A stretch of DNA of 24,582 nucleotides from a virus. The DNA lies in the IMG/VR virus record IMGVR_UViG_3300043395_003969, positions 1 to 24,582 of that record; one strand, written 5' to 3'. Positions 5,845 to 24,562 of the stretch are shown here, in pieces. Within the stretch, counting starts at the first letter, position 1; each line of letters begins with the position of its first letter. The notes beneath the pieces were generated by a model, which was not told the origin of the DNA, did not search any database, and saw only the letters and a list, made by a program, of their open reading frames with translations. The position numbers and the translations under genes are program-made.

Positions 5845-6266
5845 TAACCGCCCTCAACCGCCGATATGGCCGTCGTTTCGACGATGTTGTTTTGATTGAC
5901 CTCGGCCGTTTTGCGTTGCTCTTCCAGAAACTGAGCCAATTCCGCTTCCAGCCGCAGCCGTTTTTCGGCCAGAGTCAACAGCCCCAAGTCTTCCTCGACC
6001 TTCTGCTTCTCTGTTTGCAGGCGCAGTCTCTGGAGTTGAAGCATCAGCGTGCCGGCTGCGTCGTGCTCGCCGCTGTTGATGAGCCCATCAATACAGGTCC
6101 GCAGCTTGCCGGCGATTTCTGCGCTTCCGCCGACCTTCTGATCGAAGGCGGCGAAGAAGTCCTTCACCGTCTCCATCTCAGGTCGATTCGCTCGCGCCGC
6201 CAAAACACGTTCGGCAATACCTTGAGCTTCAGACGGAATGGTGGCCAGCGCTGACGGTCTCGACAT
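5844..6266 (-). CDS. Small coiled-coil protein, possible terminase small subunit (140 aa)
   Basis: The frame is open back to 6341, but ATG 6266 has a good AAGGAC/AAGGG sequence just upstream, while earlier starts lie deep in the preceding gene, so I chose 6266 (38-base overlap with the upstream gene). The protein begins MSRPSALATIPSEAQG, followed by a helical segment (VKDFFAAFDQKVGG) and a long C-terminal heptad-like helix rich in Leu, Glu, Gln and Arg (about residues 65-125). Its place directly before terL, with TAATG coupling, and its size match a small terminase subunit, which recognises DNA and oligomerises. I see no clear N-terminal helix-turn-helix, so the assignment is inferred from position and remains tentative. 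Confidence 0.6.
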   Translation of the reverse strand: MSRPSALATIPSEAQGIAERVLAARANRPEMETVKDFFAAFDQKVGGSAEIAGKLRTCIDGLINSGEHDAAGTLMLQLQRLRLQTEKQKVEEDLGLLTLAEKRLRLEAELAQFLEEQRKTAEVNQNNIVETTAISAVEGG

Positions 6267-8698: not shown

Positions 8699-8777
8699 GC
8701 GACCAAAAACGGCTCCACTGAGCCTGGGACTCACCGAGAAGACAGACCACGCGCCTGCTTCTCCAAACCAACGCCGC

Positions 8778-9899
8778 TCAGGCGTAATTCTTCAGCTTGC
8801 CGAAGTGCTTGGGGCTGTATTGGGCGTTTCCGAAGAAGCCCGTGCCCCAGATGGTTGACCAGTTGGTGCGCGGGTCTTCGGTCGGACCCTTGGTCCAGAA
8901 CAAATCCGGCATCAAGCTGATCAGAGTCATCTTGTCCAAATTCAAGCAGTACCCAGTGTTGGCCGGGCAATCGAAATCCGGCTGGATGGCACAGCCGTCT
9001 TGGTTCAAGGTGTTACCCTTGAAGCCGAGATCGTTCGCCGCGCTGTGGGGAATCTCGATACGACGAATGACTTCGTTGTGGTTCTTGTAGCCCTGCATCA
9101 GGTTGCTGGCCAACAAGCAGATGTCCGGCATTCCTTCCTGGGAATTGGTGACGGTCAGGAAGGTGATCATCGCCCCGATGGCGCGCCAGCAGTTGTCTTC
9201 CCATTGAGTGCTGCCACCGGTGCCCCAATTGGTGGAACTCCAGTTGACCAGCTTTGGAGACAAGAAGTCGAACTCGGCGTTGCCTGAGCCATACGGCCAG
9301 TCCTTCGCCACCGTTGCGTTGGGGCTCGTCGTCAACACTGAGGTCCAGGTGCCACCCTGGTTCCCTAAGGCTGTGCTCAAGGCTCCCAAGCCGTAAGTGT
9401 CGCTCGGCTGTGCCACGATATCGCCCGCCGCACAGGCGCCGGCGCCCATGAAGGTTTCCAGGCCATGCACGGCGTTGCCGCGCCCGGCCTCTTCGCCATC
9501 TTTGAAGAGTTCACCGTTGAACGTGTTGGTGATCGACTTCATCAGCCGCGACTGTTTGGTCGCGAACAAATTGATGAGCGCCTCCATGCCGCTGTTCATC
9601 GCGCCTTGTTTCATCGAAATCGCGTCCGTCGCGTTGTAACCGCGCCAGTCGATGGAAAGCTGGCGGAACGCATCGTGATTGGCGAAGTCGATGGTGCCAC
9701 CGTCGCCGTAGGCTTCCACCGGCGGCTGCGAGAATTCCACCTGCCAGCGGCATTCGTCGCCGCTGCCGTTGTATTGAATGCGGCCCTTCTGACGCAGCAG
9801 CGCCAGCATCAAGCGGGAACGCAACGTGAGGTCGCTGGCGCCCTTCATGTACTTAGGCATCGTGGAATTGATAATGCCTACAAATTCGGACGAAGGCAT
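8778..9899 (-). CDS. Major capsid protein, HK97-fold type (373 aa)
   Basis: Forms the icosahedral shell. The length and layout fit an HK97-type capsid protein with little or no N-terminal scaffold extension: an N-terminal arm (1-40), a beta-hairpin E-loop-like region rich in Gly and aromatic residues (about 40-85, including YNGSGDECRWQVEFSQPP), a long spine-helix-like stretch (about 95-140) with MSGMEALINLFATKQ-like composition, and a beta-rich C-terminal half ending in NYA. AAGGAGC lies nine bases before ATG 9899. The scaffold-like gene precedes it and the decoration-like gene follows, a normal head-gene order. HK97 fold is inferred from size, composition and synteny. Confidence 0.85.
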   Translation of the reverse strand: MPSSEFVGIINSTMPKYMKGASDLTLRSRLMLALLRQKGRIQYNGSGDECRWQVEFSQPPVEAYGDGGTIDFANHDAFRQLSIDWRGYNATDAISMKQGAMNSGMEALINLFATKQSRLMKSITNTFNGELFKDGEEAGRGNAVHGLETFMGAGACAAGDIVAQPSDTYGLGALSTALGNQGGTWTSVLTTSPNATVAKDWPYGSGNAEFDFLSPKLVNWSSTNWGTGGSTQWEDNCWRAIGAMITFLTVTNSQEGMPDICLLASNLMQGYKNHNEVIRRIEIPHSAANDLGFKGNTLNQDGCAIQPDFDCPANTGYCLNLDKMTLISLMPDLFWTKGPTEDPRTNWSTIWGTGFFGNAQYSPKHFGKLKNYA

Positions 9900-9922
9900 G
9901 ACAAGGCTCCTTCCTTACAGAC

Positions 9923-11209
9923 TCACGCAGCGGCCGAGTGCCCCGCCTGCGCGCGAAAATCGTTGAGAAACATCTGGTCCAATTCCCCCTGACTGACGGC
10001 GATCGGGCCAGCGGGGGATTGGACAACATTCGCACCAGCACTGGGAACATGGGTGGCATTGGCCAAAGCGGCATTCAGAAAGCTTTGCTGCCGCTGTTGA
10101 TTGATTTGTTGAGGAACGACCTGCTGGGGAGGCACGAATGGCTGTGCCTGTTGGACTGCCGGCGCCGGTTGTTGCCCCGGCTGAGCCGCACGTATCACCG
10201 CGAGTTCGGTGAGGTCGCGACACAAATTCAAAAGATCTCCGGTTGTCCCGGTCCACGACTGCTGTCGCTGCTTGAATTGCTGCGTGAAATACTCGCCGGC
10301 CGGACTCAACATCTGCCCGCCGTTCGCATTCGCCTGGTAGAGCCAGGTCTGGTTCGCCTGATCGAATTGGTTGATGCCGTTGATGTCCGCGGCCTGAGAC
10401 TGCACGGTCGCGAGCTGTTCCTTGACGCGCTGGTCAATCAAACGCTGGATCGGCTCCTGCATGGCCCCGAAGAATTTTTGATAGGGGTTCGACGCCATGA
10501 CCTCTTGCCACTGCTGGCGTTGGTGATTCACGGCCGCGTTGAGCCCGTGCAAAATCGGCGCGACCATGATTTCCATGCCCGGCCGAGGCTCCATCAGGCC
10601 GGTCTCGTCGTTGCGAATGACCATTCCTTGGTTGATCGCGAACTGCATCTCAGGGGTGAGCTGTGGCGCATTCCACAACTTCGCGAAATGGTTTTCTGGA
10701 GTCCATTCGACCTGCGGTTGCGGCTGGCCGGGCTGTTGCTGACCGGCTGGTTGTTGCGCTTGGTTGCGAAAGAAGTCCTGCATCTGGTCGGCAAACGGCA
10801 GGAGCGATTGGCCGAATTGAGCGATGGGTGCCAGTTGCTGGTATCGCTGCATCAACGCTGCCGCAACGTCGGCGTCTGTCGCCGTCGCAGGCAACTCGAT
10901 CCCCAATTGGTGAGCCTGTTGGGCCAGGCTGGGCTGAGATGGCGCGACGGCCGGTGGCGCGGTGGAAATGCCTGCGGGAGGTGGCGAACCTTCGGCCAGT
11001 GTGAAAGAAGCCTGTCCCCCCGCAGGTGCGGTTGGTGCTGGTTGAGCTTGCGCGGCTGCCGCGAACATGCCGGCCAAAGATTCGGCAGTGGGTTGAGCCT
11101 GTGGCACAACAGGGGCAGCCGTGGCGGCCTGAGCCGGCGCCGCGCCGGCTGGCATACCGGCCGGCGTGAACGTTCCGTTTCCATTCGAGTTCGGGATTTG
11201 CGGGAACAT
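9923..11209 (-). CDS. Scaffolding-like protein, Gln/Pro/Ala-rich (428 aa)
   Basis: The frame is open to 11272, but ATG 11209 follows AAGGA by seven bases and gives the sensible start MFPQIPNSNG. The protein is low in complexity: residues 10-110 are Ala/Pro/Gln-rich and probably disordered, the middle (about 120-330) is helical and Gln-rich, another Pro/Gln tract follows, and the C-terminus ends in a short helical motif (SQGELDQMFLNDFRAQAG). Capsid-proximal position, helical and disordered composition and a compact C-terminal helix are typical of phage scaffolding proteins, whose C-termini bind the capsid. No Ser/His/Asp protease motif is seen. It is the first gene of the late minus-strand string. 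Confidence 0.75.
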   Translation of the reverse strand: MFPQIPNSNGNGTFTPAGMPAGAAPAQAATAAPVVPQAQPTAESLAGMFAAAAQAQPAPTAPAGGQASFTLAEGSPPPAGISTAPPAVAPSQPSLAQQAHQLGIELPATATDADVAAALMQRYQQLAPIAQFGQSLLPFADQMQDFFRNQAQQPAGQQQPGQPQPQVEWTPENHFAKLWNAPQLTPEMQFAINQGMVIRNDETGLMEPRPGMEIMVAPILHGLNAAVNHQRQQWQEVMASNPYQKFFGAMQEPIQRLIDQRVKEQLATVQSQAADINGINQFDQANQTWLYQANANGGQMLSPAGEYFTQQFKQRQQSWTGTTGDLLNLCRDLTELAVIRAAQPGQQPAPAVQQAQPFVPPQQVVPQQINQQRQQSFLNAALANATHVPSAGANVVQSPAGPIAVSQGELDQMFLNDFRAQAGHSAAA

Positions 11210-11337
11210 GGCGGATTCCTTGAGGGAGGGGATTGGGAGAAACCGGAGGGGATATCTCCCAATTTCCACCAAACCTCAGGGAATCTTTCTGAATCATCGT
11301 TGCGAAACGACGCCAAGAGTCTTAGGTTGATCGCGAC
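11210..11337. promoter_or_regulatory. Divergent control region between late and accessory operons
   Basis: The only divergent gap in the left half; it must hold start signals for both strands or leader RNA for the minus operon. ATTGGGAGA (11232-11240) and TCTCCCAAT (11255-11263) form a perfect nine-bp inverted repeat just upstream of the scaffold gene RBS. A second near-palindrome (TCGTTGCGAAACGA, about 11297-11310) lies towards the plus-strand gene. On the plus strand TTGCGA and TAGGTT are 17 bases apart, a weak promoter match. No confident sigma-70 promoter is visible. Confidence 0.45.
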
Positions 11338-11577
11338 ATGACACAAGCCACGATCAACTTTGGCGTTTACCCACTCGGCATCATGCCGATCGACGTGTTC
11401 GCCAAACATGCGCGGGTCGCCCCGCAAACGATCCGGCGGTGGAATCGGGAAGGCCGGATCAATCCCTTCACCAGCGAACGGATTCGTTGCAGTCTCACCG
11501 CTTTGCCAAGCGGCGGCTGGGGAATCACCGAGCGGCAGTACGATGAATTCATCAAGGCGCTCAACGAACGGCTGTGA
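11338..11577 (+). CDS. Small helix-turn-helix DNA-binding protein (79 aa)
   Basis: Residues 17-45 (MPIDVFAKHARVAPQTIRR followed by WNREGRINP) match the winged helix-turn-helix of MerR/excisionase-like small DNA-binding proteins: a helix, a turn, then the TIRRWxxEGRI recognition segment. The C-terminal part ends in a helix (ITERQYDEFIKALNERL). As the first gene of the plus-strand operon next to the divergent region, it is a candidate local regulator or Xis-like protein (inference). ATG 11338 has only a weak AGG upstream; an internal ATG at 11383 would retain the HTH. Its stop overlaps the next start. Confidence 0.75.
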   Translation: MTQATINFGVYPLGIMPIDVFAKHARVAPQTIRRWNREGRINPFTSERIRCSLTALPSGGWGITERQYDEFIKALNERL

Positions 11578-11810
11578 GACTCTCGCTTAAAAAGATCATG
11601 CTCATGCTCACGCTCTCTAACTTGGTGGATCGGATTGCCACGATCACGCAACAGCGGTTTGAGTTGGCCGAACTCGTCGAGAAGCTTTTGGACCTGATTG
11701 AGGGCAATGACTCCGCTGAAGCTGCAGCCCTCCGCGACGCCGCTCGGAAGTTATTTGCTGACCATTCAGCCGACCGACGAGGCGGCCGGGAAGGGGCCTG
11801 TGATGGGTGA
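11574..11810 (+). CDS. Small helical hypothetical protein (78 aa)
   Basis: Begins with a GTG overlapping the preceding stop (GTGA); internal ATGs at 11598 and 11604 are alternatives giving 68-70 residues. The protein is mostly helical and acidic in the middle (RFELAELVEKLLDLIEGNDSAEAAALRDAARKLF, quoted in parts by eye), ending in a basic Arg/Gly tail that overlaps the next gene by eight bases. I do not recognise it; composition suggests a small dimerising helical protein. Confidence 0.55.
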   Translation: MRLSLKKIMLMLTLSNLVDRIATITQQRFELAELVEKLLDLIEGNDSAEAAALRDAARKLFADHSADRRGGREGACDG

Positions 11811-18911: not shown

Positions 18912-18972
18912 TGGTGACGGCTGGCGGATTGGATGCCGCCAGTAAACCACAGGTCCCGTCCGAAGTCGGGGC
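18912..18972 (+). repeat. Two-hairpin intergenic element, copy 2
   Basis: Second copy of the element at 15808-15867, again placed right after a stop codon and upstream of a small gene. Stem 1 is CTGGCGG/CCGCCAG (18921-18927 with 18936-18942) with the different loop ATTGGATG, one stem pair shorter than in copy 1. Linker and hairpin 2 are the same except one base in CCACAGG versus CCACGGG. Confidence 0.65.
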
Positions 18973-19492: not shown

Positions 19493-19584
19493 GGCGAACG
19501 TCAAAGTTCAGCCGGGCGGCGCGGTTGAACTCCGAAGACAGAACACGCGCGAACGCCGCCTCGTGCTGGAACGACTTGTTAGCC
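19493..19584 (-). repeat. attC-like element 1 (92 nt)
   Basis: Bounded by GGCGAAC (19493-19499) and GTTAGCC (19578-19584). The arms GTTCAGC-CG-GGCGGCG and CGCCGCC-T-CG-T-GCTG-GAAC pair with three unpaired bases (T, T, G), all on the 3' arm of the plus strand. Read on the minus strand it begins GGCTAACAAGTCGTTCCAGC, like known integron attC sites, hence the strand given. It aligns without gaps to element 2 (also 92 nt), including ACAGAA-ACGCGC in the loop. Confidence 0.7.
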
Positions 19585-19887
19585 ATGCTTTGTTGCGGGA
19601 ATGAAATCACAACAGCCTTTTGCCCTCACTGCGGGAAAGCCAATGCGATCGTGGATAGATTGCCAATGCTTTTGAAGATGTGTGAGAGTAATCAACGAAA
19701 CAACGAAACTCGTGTGACTCAATGCGAGGGGCGGCTTGCGGACGAACGCTGCAAGGAGCATTGGGGCCGCATCGCGAAAACCAAAGCGGCGAGAGCAAAG
19801 GCGGCTGAGAAGTGGCGTCAGGCTGGCGAACAGTTACTGGCTGCAATGGCGGCGTATCAGAAGATGCGCGATGCTGAGCGTGGCTAA
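19585..19887 (+). CDS. Cassette 1: zinc-ribbon-like small protein (100 aa)
   Basis: ATG 19585 is the first base after the GTTAGCC core; its stop TAA lies inside the 3' core GGCTAAC, a classic gene-cassette feature. A longer form starting TTG 19525 in the loop of element 1 would add 20 residues. The protein has MLCCGNEITTAFCPHCGKAN at the N-terminus: CPHC plus an upstream CC pair may bind one metal ion. The C-terminal half is a charged Ala/Lys/Gln helix (AAEKWRQAGEQLLAAMAAYQ). No RBS is visible before ATG 19585. Function unknown. Confidence 0.65.
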   Translation: MLCCGNEITTAFCPHCGKANAIVDRLPMLLKMCESNQRNNETRVTQCEGRLADERCKEHWGRIAKTKAARAKAAEKWRQAGEQLLAAMAAYQKMRDAERG

Positions 19888-19973
19888 CGCTCAGGTTCAG
19901 CCGTGCGGCGGAGAGAAGATTATGAGTACAGAAAACGCGCAGTCCGCCGCTCGGCTGGAACCGCTTGTTGGGC
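19882..19973 (-). repeat. attC-like element 2 (92 nt)
   Basis: Bounded by GGCTAAC (19882-19888) and GTTGGGC (19967-19973). The arms GGTTC-AGCCG-GCGGCGGA and its complement pair over about 19 bp with one A-A/T-T mismatch and one unpaired G on the 3' plus-strand arm. Read on the minus strand it begins GCCCAACAAGCGGTTCCAGC and ends CTGAGCGTTAGCC, close to known attC ends. Its loop contains GGAG and the ATG of the next gene (19922). Confidence 0.75.
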
Positions 19974-20182
19974 GCCGGTTGTTTGGTCTCATAGCGAGGT
20001 GCAAAATGGAGCTTTCTGGTTGCAGCGATACCATGCCCTGCGTGAATTTGTTTTTGAGTCGTCAGGCGGCTCAGGCAGAAGTTGAAGCGTTTCGTATTCG
20101 GTGTCGGCAGCCGACCGATTGCGATCTTGATTGCGGTGAACCAATTCGCGTTGAGGTGTGTGAATTTGTGGTGGCTGGATAG
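19922..20182 (+). CDS. Cassette 2: small hypothetical protein (86 aa), start inside the attC-like element
   Basis: ATG 19922 lies in the loop of element 2 with GGAG (19910-19913) eight bases upstream. The 3' arm and core of the element are then translated as SAARLEPLVGRR. A later ATG at 20006 also has a good RBS (GAGG, six bases) and would give 58 residues without any element-derived sequence. The body ends with DLDCGEPIRVEVCEFVVAG, has five or more Cys and looks like a small alpha/beta protein. The stop TAG ends four bases before the GCCCAAC core. Function unknown; which start is used is not decided. Confidence 0.6.
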   Translation: MSTENAQSAARLEPLVGRRLFGLIARCKMELSGCSDTMPCVNLFLSRQAAQAEVEAFRIRCRQPTDCDLDCGEPIRVEVCEFVVAG

Positions 20183-20186
20183 CGCC

Positions 20187-20199
20187 GCCCAACAGTTAA
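20187..20199 (-). other. Array-end recombination-core-like site, left copy
   Basis: On the minus strand the sequence reads TTAACTGTTGGGC. GTTGGGC is the exact complement of the GCCCAAC/GTTGGGC core pair that bounds cassette 2, but no attC hairpin follows. The identical TTAACTGTT plus core occurs in the opposite orientation at 24164-24176, at the other side of the replication module. By analogy with integrons, this is the attI-like end of the array. Confidence 0.55.
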
Positions 20200-20217
20200 A
20201 AACGGCCTGCTCGGCCG
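20198..20217 (-). terminator. Intrinsic terminator downstream of the ParB-like gene
   Basis: On the minus strand CGGCC-GAGCA-GGCCG (20217-20203) is followed by TTTTTAAC. It lies 133 bases beyond the stop of the ParB-like gene and would end the replication operon before the cassette array. The stem is short (five bp), so strength is uncertain. Confidence 0.55.
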
Positions 20218-20288
20218 GAGTCGTGTTGTTGCGACTCACAGAGCGGTTGAGCGGCACGAGACCAATATCGGCCGTTGTCTTCACTCGG

Positions 20289-20328
20289 CCCCGCGCCCGG
20301 TGGCTCAAGCTGGGCGCGGGGTTTTTTT
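20289..20328 (+). terminator. Strong intrinsic terminator of the plus-strand operon
   Basis: A perfect ten-bp GC stem CCCCGCGCCC/GGGCGCGGGG (20289-20298 with 20312-20321) is followed by seven T. It lies between the converging plus-strand block and the minus-strand replication module. A GAGTCG/CGACTC hairpin (20218-20237) lies just upstream. Confidence 0.93.
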
Positions 20329-20350
20329 GTGCCGCCAGAGATCTCCGCAA

Positions 20351-24163: not shown

Positions 24164-24176
24164 TTAACTGTTAGAT
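24164..24176 (+). other. Array-end recombination-core-like site, right copy
   Basis: TTAACTGTTAGAT. GTTAGAT (24170-24176) is the exact complement of ATCTAAC (24473-24479) at the far end of the same cassette. The preceding TTAACT is shared with the left copy at 20187-20199, in the opposite orientation. Confidence 0.55.
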
Positions 24177-24518
24177 TGCTGGCATCACTACATCTTCAGG
24201 AACTTCGACGCTCCACCCTGTCTCGCGAAACCACGCCAAGCGCTTGGCTACATTGCGTCCGTACTCATTGCCGTCCCCTGGCACGAAAAAGTCATCGCAA
24301 TCAACAACCACTGATCCGTCAATACTCCACGTCACTTGCTCAACCACTTGATTGCCGTCGGTCCCATCGCAACGCGAGAGCCATTCACCAATGACCGGAA
24401 CGCGGACAAACGGTACGTCTCGCTCCACCCAGAAATACCATTCGGAAGAAAAGACGCCGACACAAAAACGCAATCTAACAAGTCGGTCAAGCCGAGTTGC
24501 GGATGACGCTGTTTCCAT
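24171..24518 (-). CDS. Cassette 3: hypothetical protein (115 aa), start inside the attC-like element
   Basis: ATG 24518 lies in the loop of the attC-like element with AAAGGA eight bases upstream; the element's arm and core are translated as SSATRLDRLVRLR, similar to SAARLEPLVGRR in cassette 2. The stop TAA is inside the ATCTAAC core (minus strand, 24176-24170). The protein is acidic, rich in Val, Asp and Trp, with WYFWVERDVPFVRVPVIGEW as a beta-like segment and GRNVAKRLAWFRETGW as a helix. Function unknown. A TTG start at 24473, just past the core, would give 100 residues. Confidence 0.65.
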   Translation of the reverse strand: METASSATRLDRLVRLRFCVGVFSSEWYFWVERDVPFVRVPVIGEWLSRCDGTDGNQVVEQVTWSIDGSVVVDCDDFFVPGDGNEYGRNVAKRLAWFRETGWSVEVPEDVVMPAI

Positions 24519-24562
24519 AATCAAAATCCTTTGGCCGCAACCGGCTTACCTTGTCGTTATGC
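24473..24562 (+). repeat. attC-like element 3 (90 nt)
   Basis: Bounded by ATCTAAC (24473-24479) and GTTATGC (24556-24562). The arms GGT-C-AAGCCG-A-GTTGCGG and CCGCAACCGGCTTACC pair over 16 bp, leaving C and A unpaired on the 5' plus-strand arm; on the opposite strand these are G and T, the extrahelical bases expected in integron attC sites. TAACAAGTCGGTCAAGCCGA closely resembles known attC left ends. Its strand is opposite to the adjoining gene. Confidence 0.78.

Follow-up and report, generated by a model that had tools for sequence, protein, structure and literature searches.

The window analysed here is the whole of the IMG/VR virus contig IMGVR_UViG_3300043395_003969, a stretch of 24,582 bases encoding a terminase-like protein, a portal-like protein, a DnaB helicase and a DUF932 protein. 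Its capsid-like, portal-like and terminase-like proteins match those of another virus contig, IMGVR_UViG_3300043429_000477, at 58%, 42% and 44%, respectively, this contig being the only known relative and one that matches the structural half of the window alone. The window is a phage contig, since terminase-, portal- and capsid-like proteins are common to it and the other virus contig and a DnaB helicase is also present. Three attC sites, three cassettes that end with them and three small ORFs are found in it, distributed in two arrays, array 1 on the minus strand and array 2 on the plus strand. Neither the locus nor attC2 gave a useful BLAST result against phages or plasmids. Two further elements lie close to array 1: a type-P5 twister ribozyme (RF02684; 46.8 bits, gathering score 37.6) at 18913-18970 (plus strand), with the DUF932 gene on one side and the small genes preceding the array on the other, and a GC-rich inverted repeat followed by a run of T at 20283-20332, seen by eye, between the array and a convergent ParB-like gene.

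Integrons are the textbook bacterial system for gene capture and expression. The attC sites of the window were identified with a covariance model, R2, trained on seven attCs with a 9-nt tail, all of them from bacterial integrons, namely that of plasmid R46 and those of three IntI-bearing Pseudomonadota loci, the IntI having been located by TIGR02249. Run over the whole window with filters off, R2 gave exactly three matches of 31.1 to 36.9 bits (E 3.1e-7 to 4.7e-9, values that are rough because of the short calibration), the next best scoring 13.0 bits. In 50 kb of plasmid R46 it gave only two matches, both within the class 1 cassette array, and in the distant relative phage IMGVR_UViG_3300043429_000477 it found no attC. 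Site attC1 (19493..19584, minus strand; 36.9 bits, E 4.7e-9) ends cassette A and has the boxes R'' GGCTAAC (19584-19578) and R' GTTCGCC (19499-19493). Site attC2 (19882..19973, minus strand), which ends cassette B, was recognised by R2 (31.1 bits, E 3.1e-7) and by arm alignment; its boxes are R'' GCCCAAC (19973-19967) and R' GTTAGCC (19888-19882), it has an extra base C at position 16 and an A opposite A at position 23, and very few shuffled sequences fold as well as it does (z -2.7 and -3.2 for its two strands). Site attC3 (24473..24562, plus strand; 36.5 bits, E 6.4e-9), at the end of cassette C, was first indicated by an arm-pairing scan and then scored by R2. Its boxes are R'' ATCTAAC and R' GTTATGC, its structure score is 14.0 vs 6.5 on the other strand, and both extrahelical bases (C16 and A23) are exactly as in canonical attCs; phage TJE1 has them too in one attC, and recombination of its attCs with attI1 has been shown (Qi 2023, PMC9892861). 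The reverse strand of every site is absent from the R2 list, and therefore the polarity of the sites is fixed as minus, minus and plus, the reverse of what the first-pass annotation had assumed.

The three elements are genuine attC sites. None of them was recovered by another covariance model, R1, for which mostly Vibrio-like attCs had been used and their loops trimmed; its one match was weak and probably spurious. We think that the trimming of loops capped the match length and that the training set was AT-rich. The attC type of the window may be of planctomycete origin. A lone attC-like site with the same L'/R' sequence as attC2 lies at 6096-6171 (minus strand) in the Halorhodospira abdelmalekii contig NZ_NRRN01000070.1 (L002), and shows only that this L'/R' motif occurs elsewhere.

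Delimited from G|TT to G|TT, array 1 consists of cassette A (389 nt, 19499..19887, minus strand) and cassette B (305 nt, 19888..20192, minus strand), the latter being the first of the array, and array 2 of cassette C (386 nt, 24171..24556, plus strand). In each of them R'' and R' close exactly over 7 of 7 bases. The pairs GTTAGCC/GGCTAAC (19578 and 19882) for A and GTTGGGC/GCCCAAC (19967 and 20187) for B had already been reported as exact reverse complements, and they are so at those positions; the pair of cassette C is GTTAGAT (24170) and ATCTAAC (24473). Only 1.9% of the 7-mers ending in AAC in the window have an exact reverse complement 90-310 nt upstream, so that three closures out of three would be expected by chance with a probability of ca. 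7e-6. The first-pass annotation had counted two cassettes, which are A and B, and to these a third closed cassette, C, has to be added on the other strand, with its own attC at 24473-24562. It was likewise right on two 92-nt elements (19493-19584 and 19882-19973), but the third element that it supposed after 20187 has no attC-like fold and is the insertion end of the array. The core it gave, G^TTRRRY, is fitted by GTTGGGC of cassette B, and also by GTTAGAT of cassette C, but GTTAGCC of cassette A is one base off; the outer R' boxes GTTCGCC of attC1 and GTTATGC of attC3 likewise depart from it by one or two bases.

Both arrays start at the sequence TTAACTG|TT, located at 20191..20199 (minus strand) for array 1 and at 24164..24172 (plus strand) for array 2. 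The hexamer TTAACT precedes just two of the 737 GTT sites of the window, and these two are the array starts; therefore both arrays begin at the same insertion-site-like 9-mer, beyond which their flanks are not alike. Read on the minus strand, the order in array 1 is TTTTTAACTG|TTGGGC, cassette B, attC2, cassette A and attC1; array 2 reads on the plus strand as ACACTTAACTG|TTAGAT, cassette C and attC3. Array 1, with attC1 and attC2 on one strand and 389 nt apart, has the attC content of a CALIN, a group of two or more attCs that share a strand, lie a few kb apart at most and have no IntI nearby, and array 2 shows one attC before the contig end. A complete integron would have intI and attI beside the array; no tyrosine recombinase domain was found in the 24.6-kb window, as the first-pass annotation had stated, and the contig is a fragment that stops 20 nt past attC3.

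That annotation had proposed integron-type cassettes within a phage, a proposal to be given up if covariance models scored none of its elements. Both of its true elements are scored by a model derived from bacterial integrons, so that the proposal passes the test set for it beforehand; the earlier observation is partly confirmed overall, and its interpretation as integron cassettes is supported. Chance hairpins or terminators that happen to resemble attCs would account for an ordinary folding energy such as that of attC1 (z -0.5 against shuffles), and arm pairing alone does give other weak candidates; with covariance E-values down to 5e-9, a closure probability of ca. 7e-6 and the insertion motif at the start of both arrays, such resemblance is, however, extremely improbable.

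The genes of the cassettes run against their attCs. ORF A (100 aa, 19585..19887, plus strand), which has a CPHCG zinc-ribbon-like motif and a Pfam match that is not significant, starts directly after attC1 and has its stop codon within the R box. ORF B (58 aa, 20006..20182, plus strand) is in frame with an ATG at 19922 in the attC2 loop, placed after GGAGAG, and ORF C (115 aa, 24171..24518, minus strand) has its start codon in the attC3 loop and its stop codon, TAA, within the R box ATCTAAC. Each of the three is antisense to the polarity of its own attC and starts beside or inside the attC loop, and all are colinear with the surrounding phage genes. The coding score of ORF A exceeds that of the antisense alternative, while ORFs B and C are uncertain by codon usage, the coding signal of ORF B being poor; in this phage, cassette ORFs and background are not distinguishable by codon usage. 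A long minus-strand frame (19607-20350) was considered as a gene and rejected, since it scored as non-coding. The attC loops at 19922-20008 (plus strand) and 24518-24473 (minus strand) hold Shine-Dalgarno-like bases and an ATG, and the frames from these ATGs cross the R box and continue as ORFs B and C (MSTENAQSAARLEPLVG... and METASSATRLDRLVRL..., respectively). It may be, therefore, judging from the continuity of these frames, that attC encodes the beginning of the cassette protein.

The direction of cassette genes was compared between bacterial and viral arrays. Viral arrays were found by means of patterns for canonical attC halves, which are blind to genes; strict attC patterns found almost nothing, and it was with relaxed canonical halves that arrays were recovered. 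Genes were called with a home-made caller that recovers the expected phage genes of the window. In the bacterial control, which consists of Pseudomonadota IntI arrays only, 83 cassette genes are sense and 5 antisense to attC, and 23 of 25 arrays have a majority of sense genes and none a majority of antisense genes. Phage arrays, in contrast, are mostly antisense: in virus contigs with attC, a set of IMG/VR records some of which may be misassigned bacterial DNA, 25 cassette genes are sense and 61 antisense (Fisher p ~2e-20 for the difference in orientation), 11 of those 25 sense genes coming from a single contig, L083. Cassettes within one array are not independent, and therefore the record counts, 18 with an antisense majority vs 5 with a sense majority, are the safer figure. 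The cassette genes of phage TJE1 are sense when scored here. Closure of R'' with R' is exact in 43 of 66 viral cassettes, compared with 8.8% of unmatched pairs, which indicates that these are real cassettes. Homology, which does not depend on the gene caller, places one DNA methylase gene and two genes with a PAPS-reductase domain antisense to their attCs.

A piece of a host integron might instead be taken up en bloc, through illegitimate or homologous recombination and not one cassette at a time by IntI, a route raised for some phages in Qi 2023 (PMC9892861). This is, however, an unlikely origin for the arrays of the window, which lie in two places and on opposite strands, each starting from the same 9-mer with no longer flank in common, and in which all genes are antisense to attC, as against the 83 to 5 in favour of sense in bacterial arrays. 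It can also be proposed that the hairpins are retained as 5' leaders that control translation or transcription of the small genes, their attC-like recombination being secondary. The start codon and Shine-Dalgarno-like bases within the loops of attC2 and attC3 would fit such a role, as would the fact that viral cassette genes mostly begin 12-27 nt past attC, but a leader would require neither breakpoints at G|TT nor an R'' and R' that close exactly at the far end of the gene, and we regard this reading as quite unlikely.

Several of the viral contigs merit separate mention. Genes with a PAPS-reductase domain are inverted cassettes in separate phage contigs, L101 and L130 (by Pfam) and L067 (by eye only), and the DNA methylase gene is an inverted cassette in L068 (IMGVR_UViG_3300032276_000002). 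Within positions 8720-11634 of the latter, cassette proteins repeat, MTDTEKDEALSGVAIDPMV... three times and ...EKIGSWLADGAPGATKK... twice, which suggests cassette duplication. In L103 (IMGVR_UViG_3300026196_000002), ca. 40 tiny genes follow one another on one strand between 2180 and 13304 with at least nine antisense attCs between them; these may form one phage cassette array of great length, in which further attCs escape recognition.

Three of the virus contigs with attC encode an IntI above the curated cut-off, and a scan seeded with two of these IntIs rendered 34 virus contigs with IntI relatives. These contigs also carry phage terminase, portal, tail, primase and integrase families. The attCs detected on them by R2 are on the strand opposite intI and nearly always upstream of it, with few downstream, which is the canonical platform, and the cassette genes, 3 sense vs 44 antisense, run with intI. 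With attCs oriented away from intI, a gene can be in line with intI only if it is inverted. The layout of the window is shared by many phages, some of which encode IntI.

Most of the phage IntIs, 25 of them, constitute one clade (97/94) that is separate from the sampled bacterial IntIs, and among 398 Pseudomonadota genomes the closest match to one IntI of the clade has 65% identity; exclusivity of the clade to phages is not proven by this, given the limited sampling and the seeding of the scan with members of the clade itself. The phage IntIs of L135 and L137 belong to a second, distant lineage, ca. 40% identical, and the attC-linked cassette genes of L135 are also mostly antisense (3:1). An attI is common to the phage clade, and as read from the contig sequences compared it is GTGTCGTTGAATTTAAG|TT with small variations. 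The window, a fragment without IntI, has TTAACTG|TT instead of a site ending in GAATTTAAG|TT or near to it, and therefore its integrase would belong to another lineage. What it shares with the phages of the clade is the direction of its genes, which oppose attC and follow the phage operon.

Comparison of near-identical phages shows that phage cassettes move. Identity between L109 and L110 is 96-99.98% across much of the two contigs, and one cassette beside attI occurs in L110 only, so that TTTAAG|TTGTGCCCC in L109 corresponds to TTTAAG|TTCGGC...attC...G|TTGTGCCCC in L110. L112 and L113 are also one cassette apart, the loss fusing one attC to the next at G|TT. In both pairs, the single-cassette difference breaks exactly at G|TT. 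These observations bear on whether the cassettes of the window are inert relics, genuine in origin but with no active integrase in phage or host. The lack of IntI in the contig, the small size of the arrays, of just one or two cassettes, and the degradation of attC1 in stem and R box would be consistent with relics. On the other hand, the three cassettes still close exactly, the three attCs still score above 31 bits, IntI may lie outside a contig that is a fragment, and near-identical phages with related layouts differ by single cassettes, so that the relic state is possible but doubtful.

In bacterial integrons the bottom strand of attC folds, and cleavage by IntI at G|TT is followed by joining of the cassette to its target. 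It is highly likely that the window holds two small integron cassette arrays in a phage, formed by circles that carried their own attC and were joined by IntI at G|TT, with genes inverted with respect to attC. Each cassette would once have been a circle closed via its own attC; IntI would bind the folded bottom strand of attC and join it, at G|TT, either to the phage site TTAACTG|TT or to the attC of a resident cassette. An empty site at this locus is seen in no related phage. Since the fragment carries no integrase, we infer the inserter of these cassettes, which would be an IntI of host or phage origin, and expression would be by read-through: phage promoters would read the operon that holds the array, and by an argument from selection genes would be expressed only if turned against attC. 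As the inverted genes are aligned with the phage operons, an integron promoter would be unneeded. It could additionally be the case that, in the inverted layout, the attC bottom strand is the non-template strand and would be exposed in transcription.

Integrons in phages are a known kind of element, as established by Qi 2023 (PMC9892861), whose excerpts describe integrons and CALINs in temperate and virulent phages and activity of IntI1 on some phage attCs. The attC arrays there resemble those of the window in residing in phages. However, the typical arrays, TJE1 and PH101, are described as bacterial-like, whereas genes are inverted in the window and in many phages here, and the phage integrases described belong to temperate phages with Vibrio, class 1 or Shewanella-host integrons, whereas many phages here have IntIs of one clade with a common attI. 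Genes inverted against attC are not reported in those excerpts, and inverted phage cassettes were not found in the literature searched, which had few subscription papers or preprints. With class 1 and Vibrio chromosomal arrays, the phage arrays have in common the attC architecture, the R''/R' closure and the G|TT breakpoints, and bacterial and phage integrons are alike in having attI next to intI and attC polarity away from intI. The integrons of Treponema (PMC3607928) are similar in that intI and cassette genes run in one direction, but there it is intI that is reversed towards attI, whereas in phage integrons intI is placed as usual and the cassette genes are inverted. Off-target insertion by IntI at attG sites (PMC10127599) likewise leaves cassette ends at a degenerate G|TT that belongs to no integron; the window differs in the use of a single 9-mer by both arrays of the phage.

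The choice of attC strand has been held to align each gene with the integron promoter (PMC8191803). Genes that run systematically against attC mean that the integron platform is usable with a different expression logic, and the inversion found in most of the virus contigs with cassettes examined here suggests that phages operate their own form of the bacterial gene-capture system. We think it rather probable that this form comprises an IntI clade and an attI of its own and genes inverted for expression from phage operons, and that through it small early genes, including those for DNA methylase and PAPS-reductase-like proteins, are shuffled among phages, the window being a cassette-bearing member that uses another insertion site. 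Direct testing is possible, since contigs of phages with IntI, attI and arrays have been identified. Phages may themselves capture, swap and spread cassettes, and, if this is true, they would provide an extra route for cassette traffic between bacteria and help to explain the fast turnover of the small early genes of phages.
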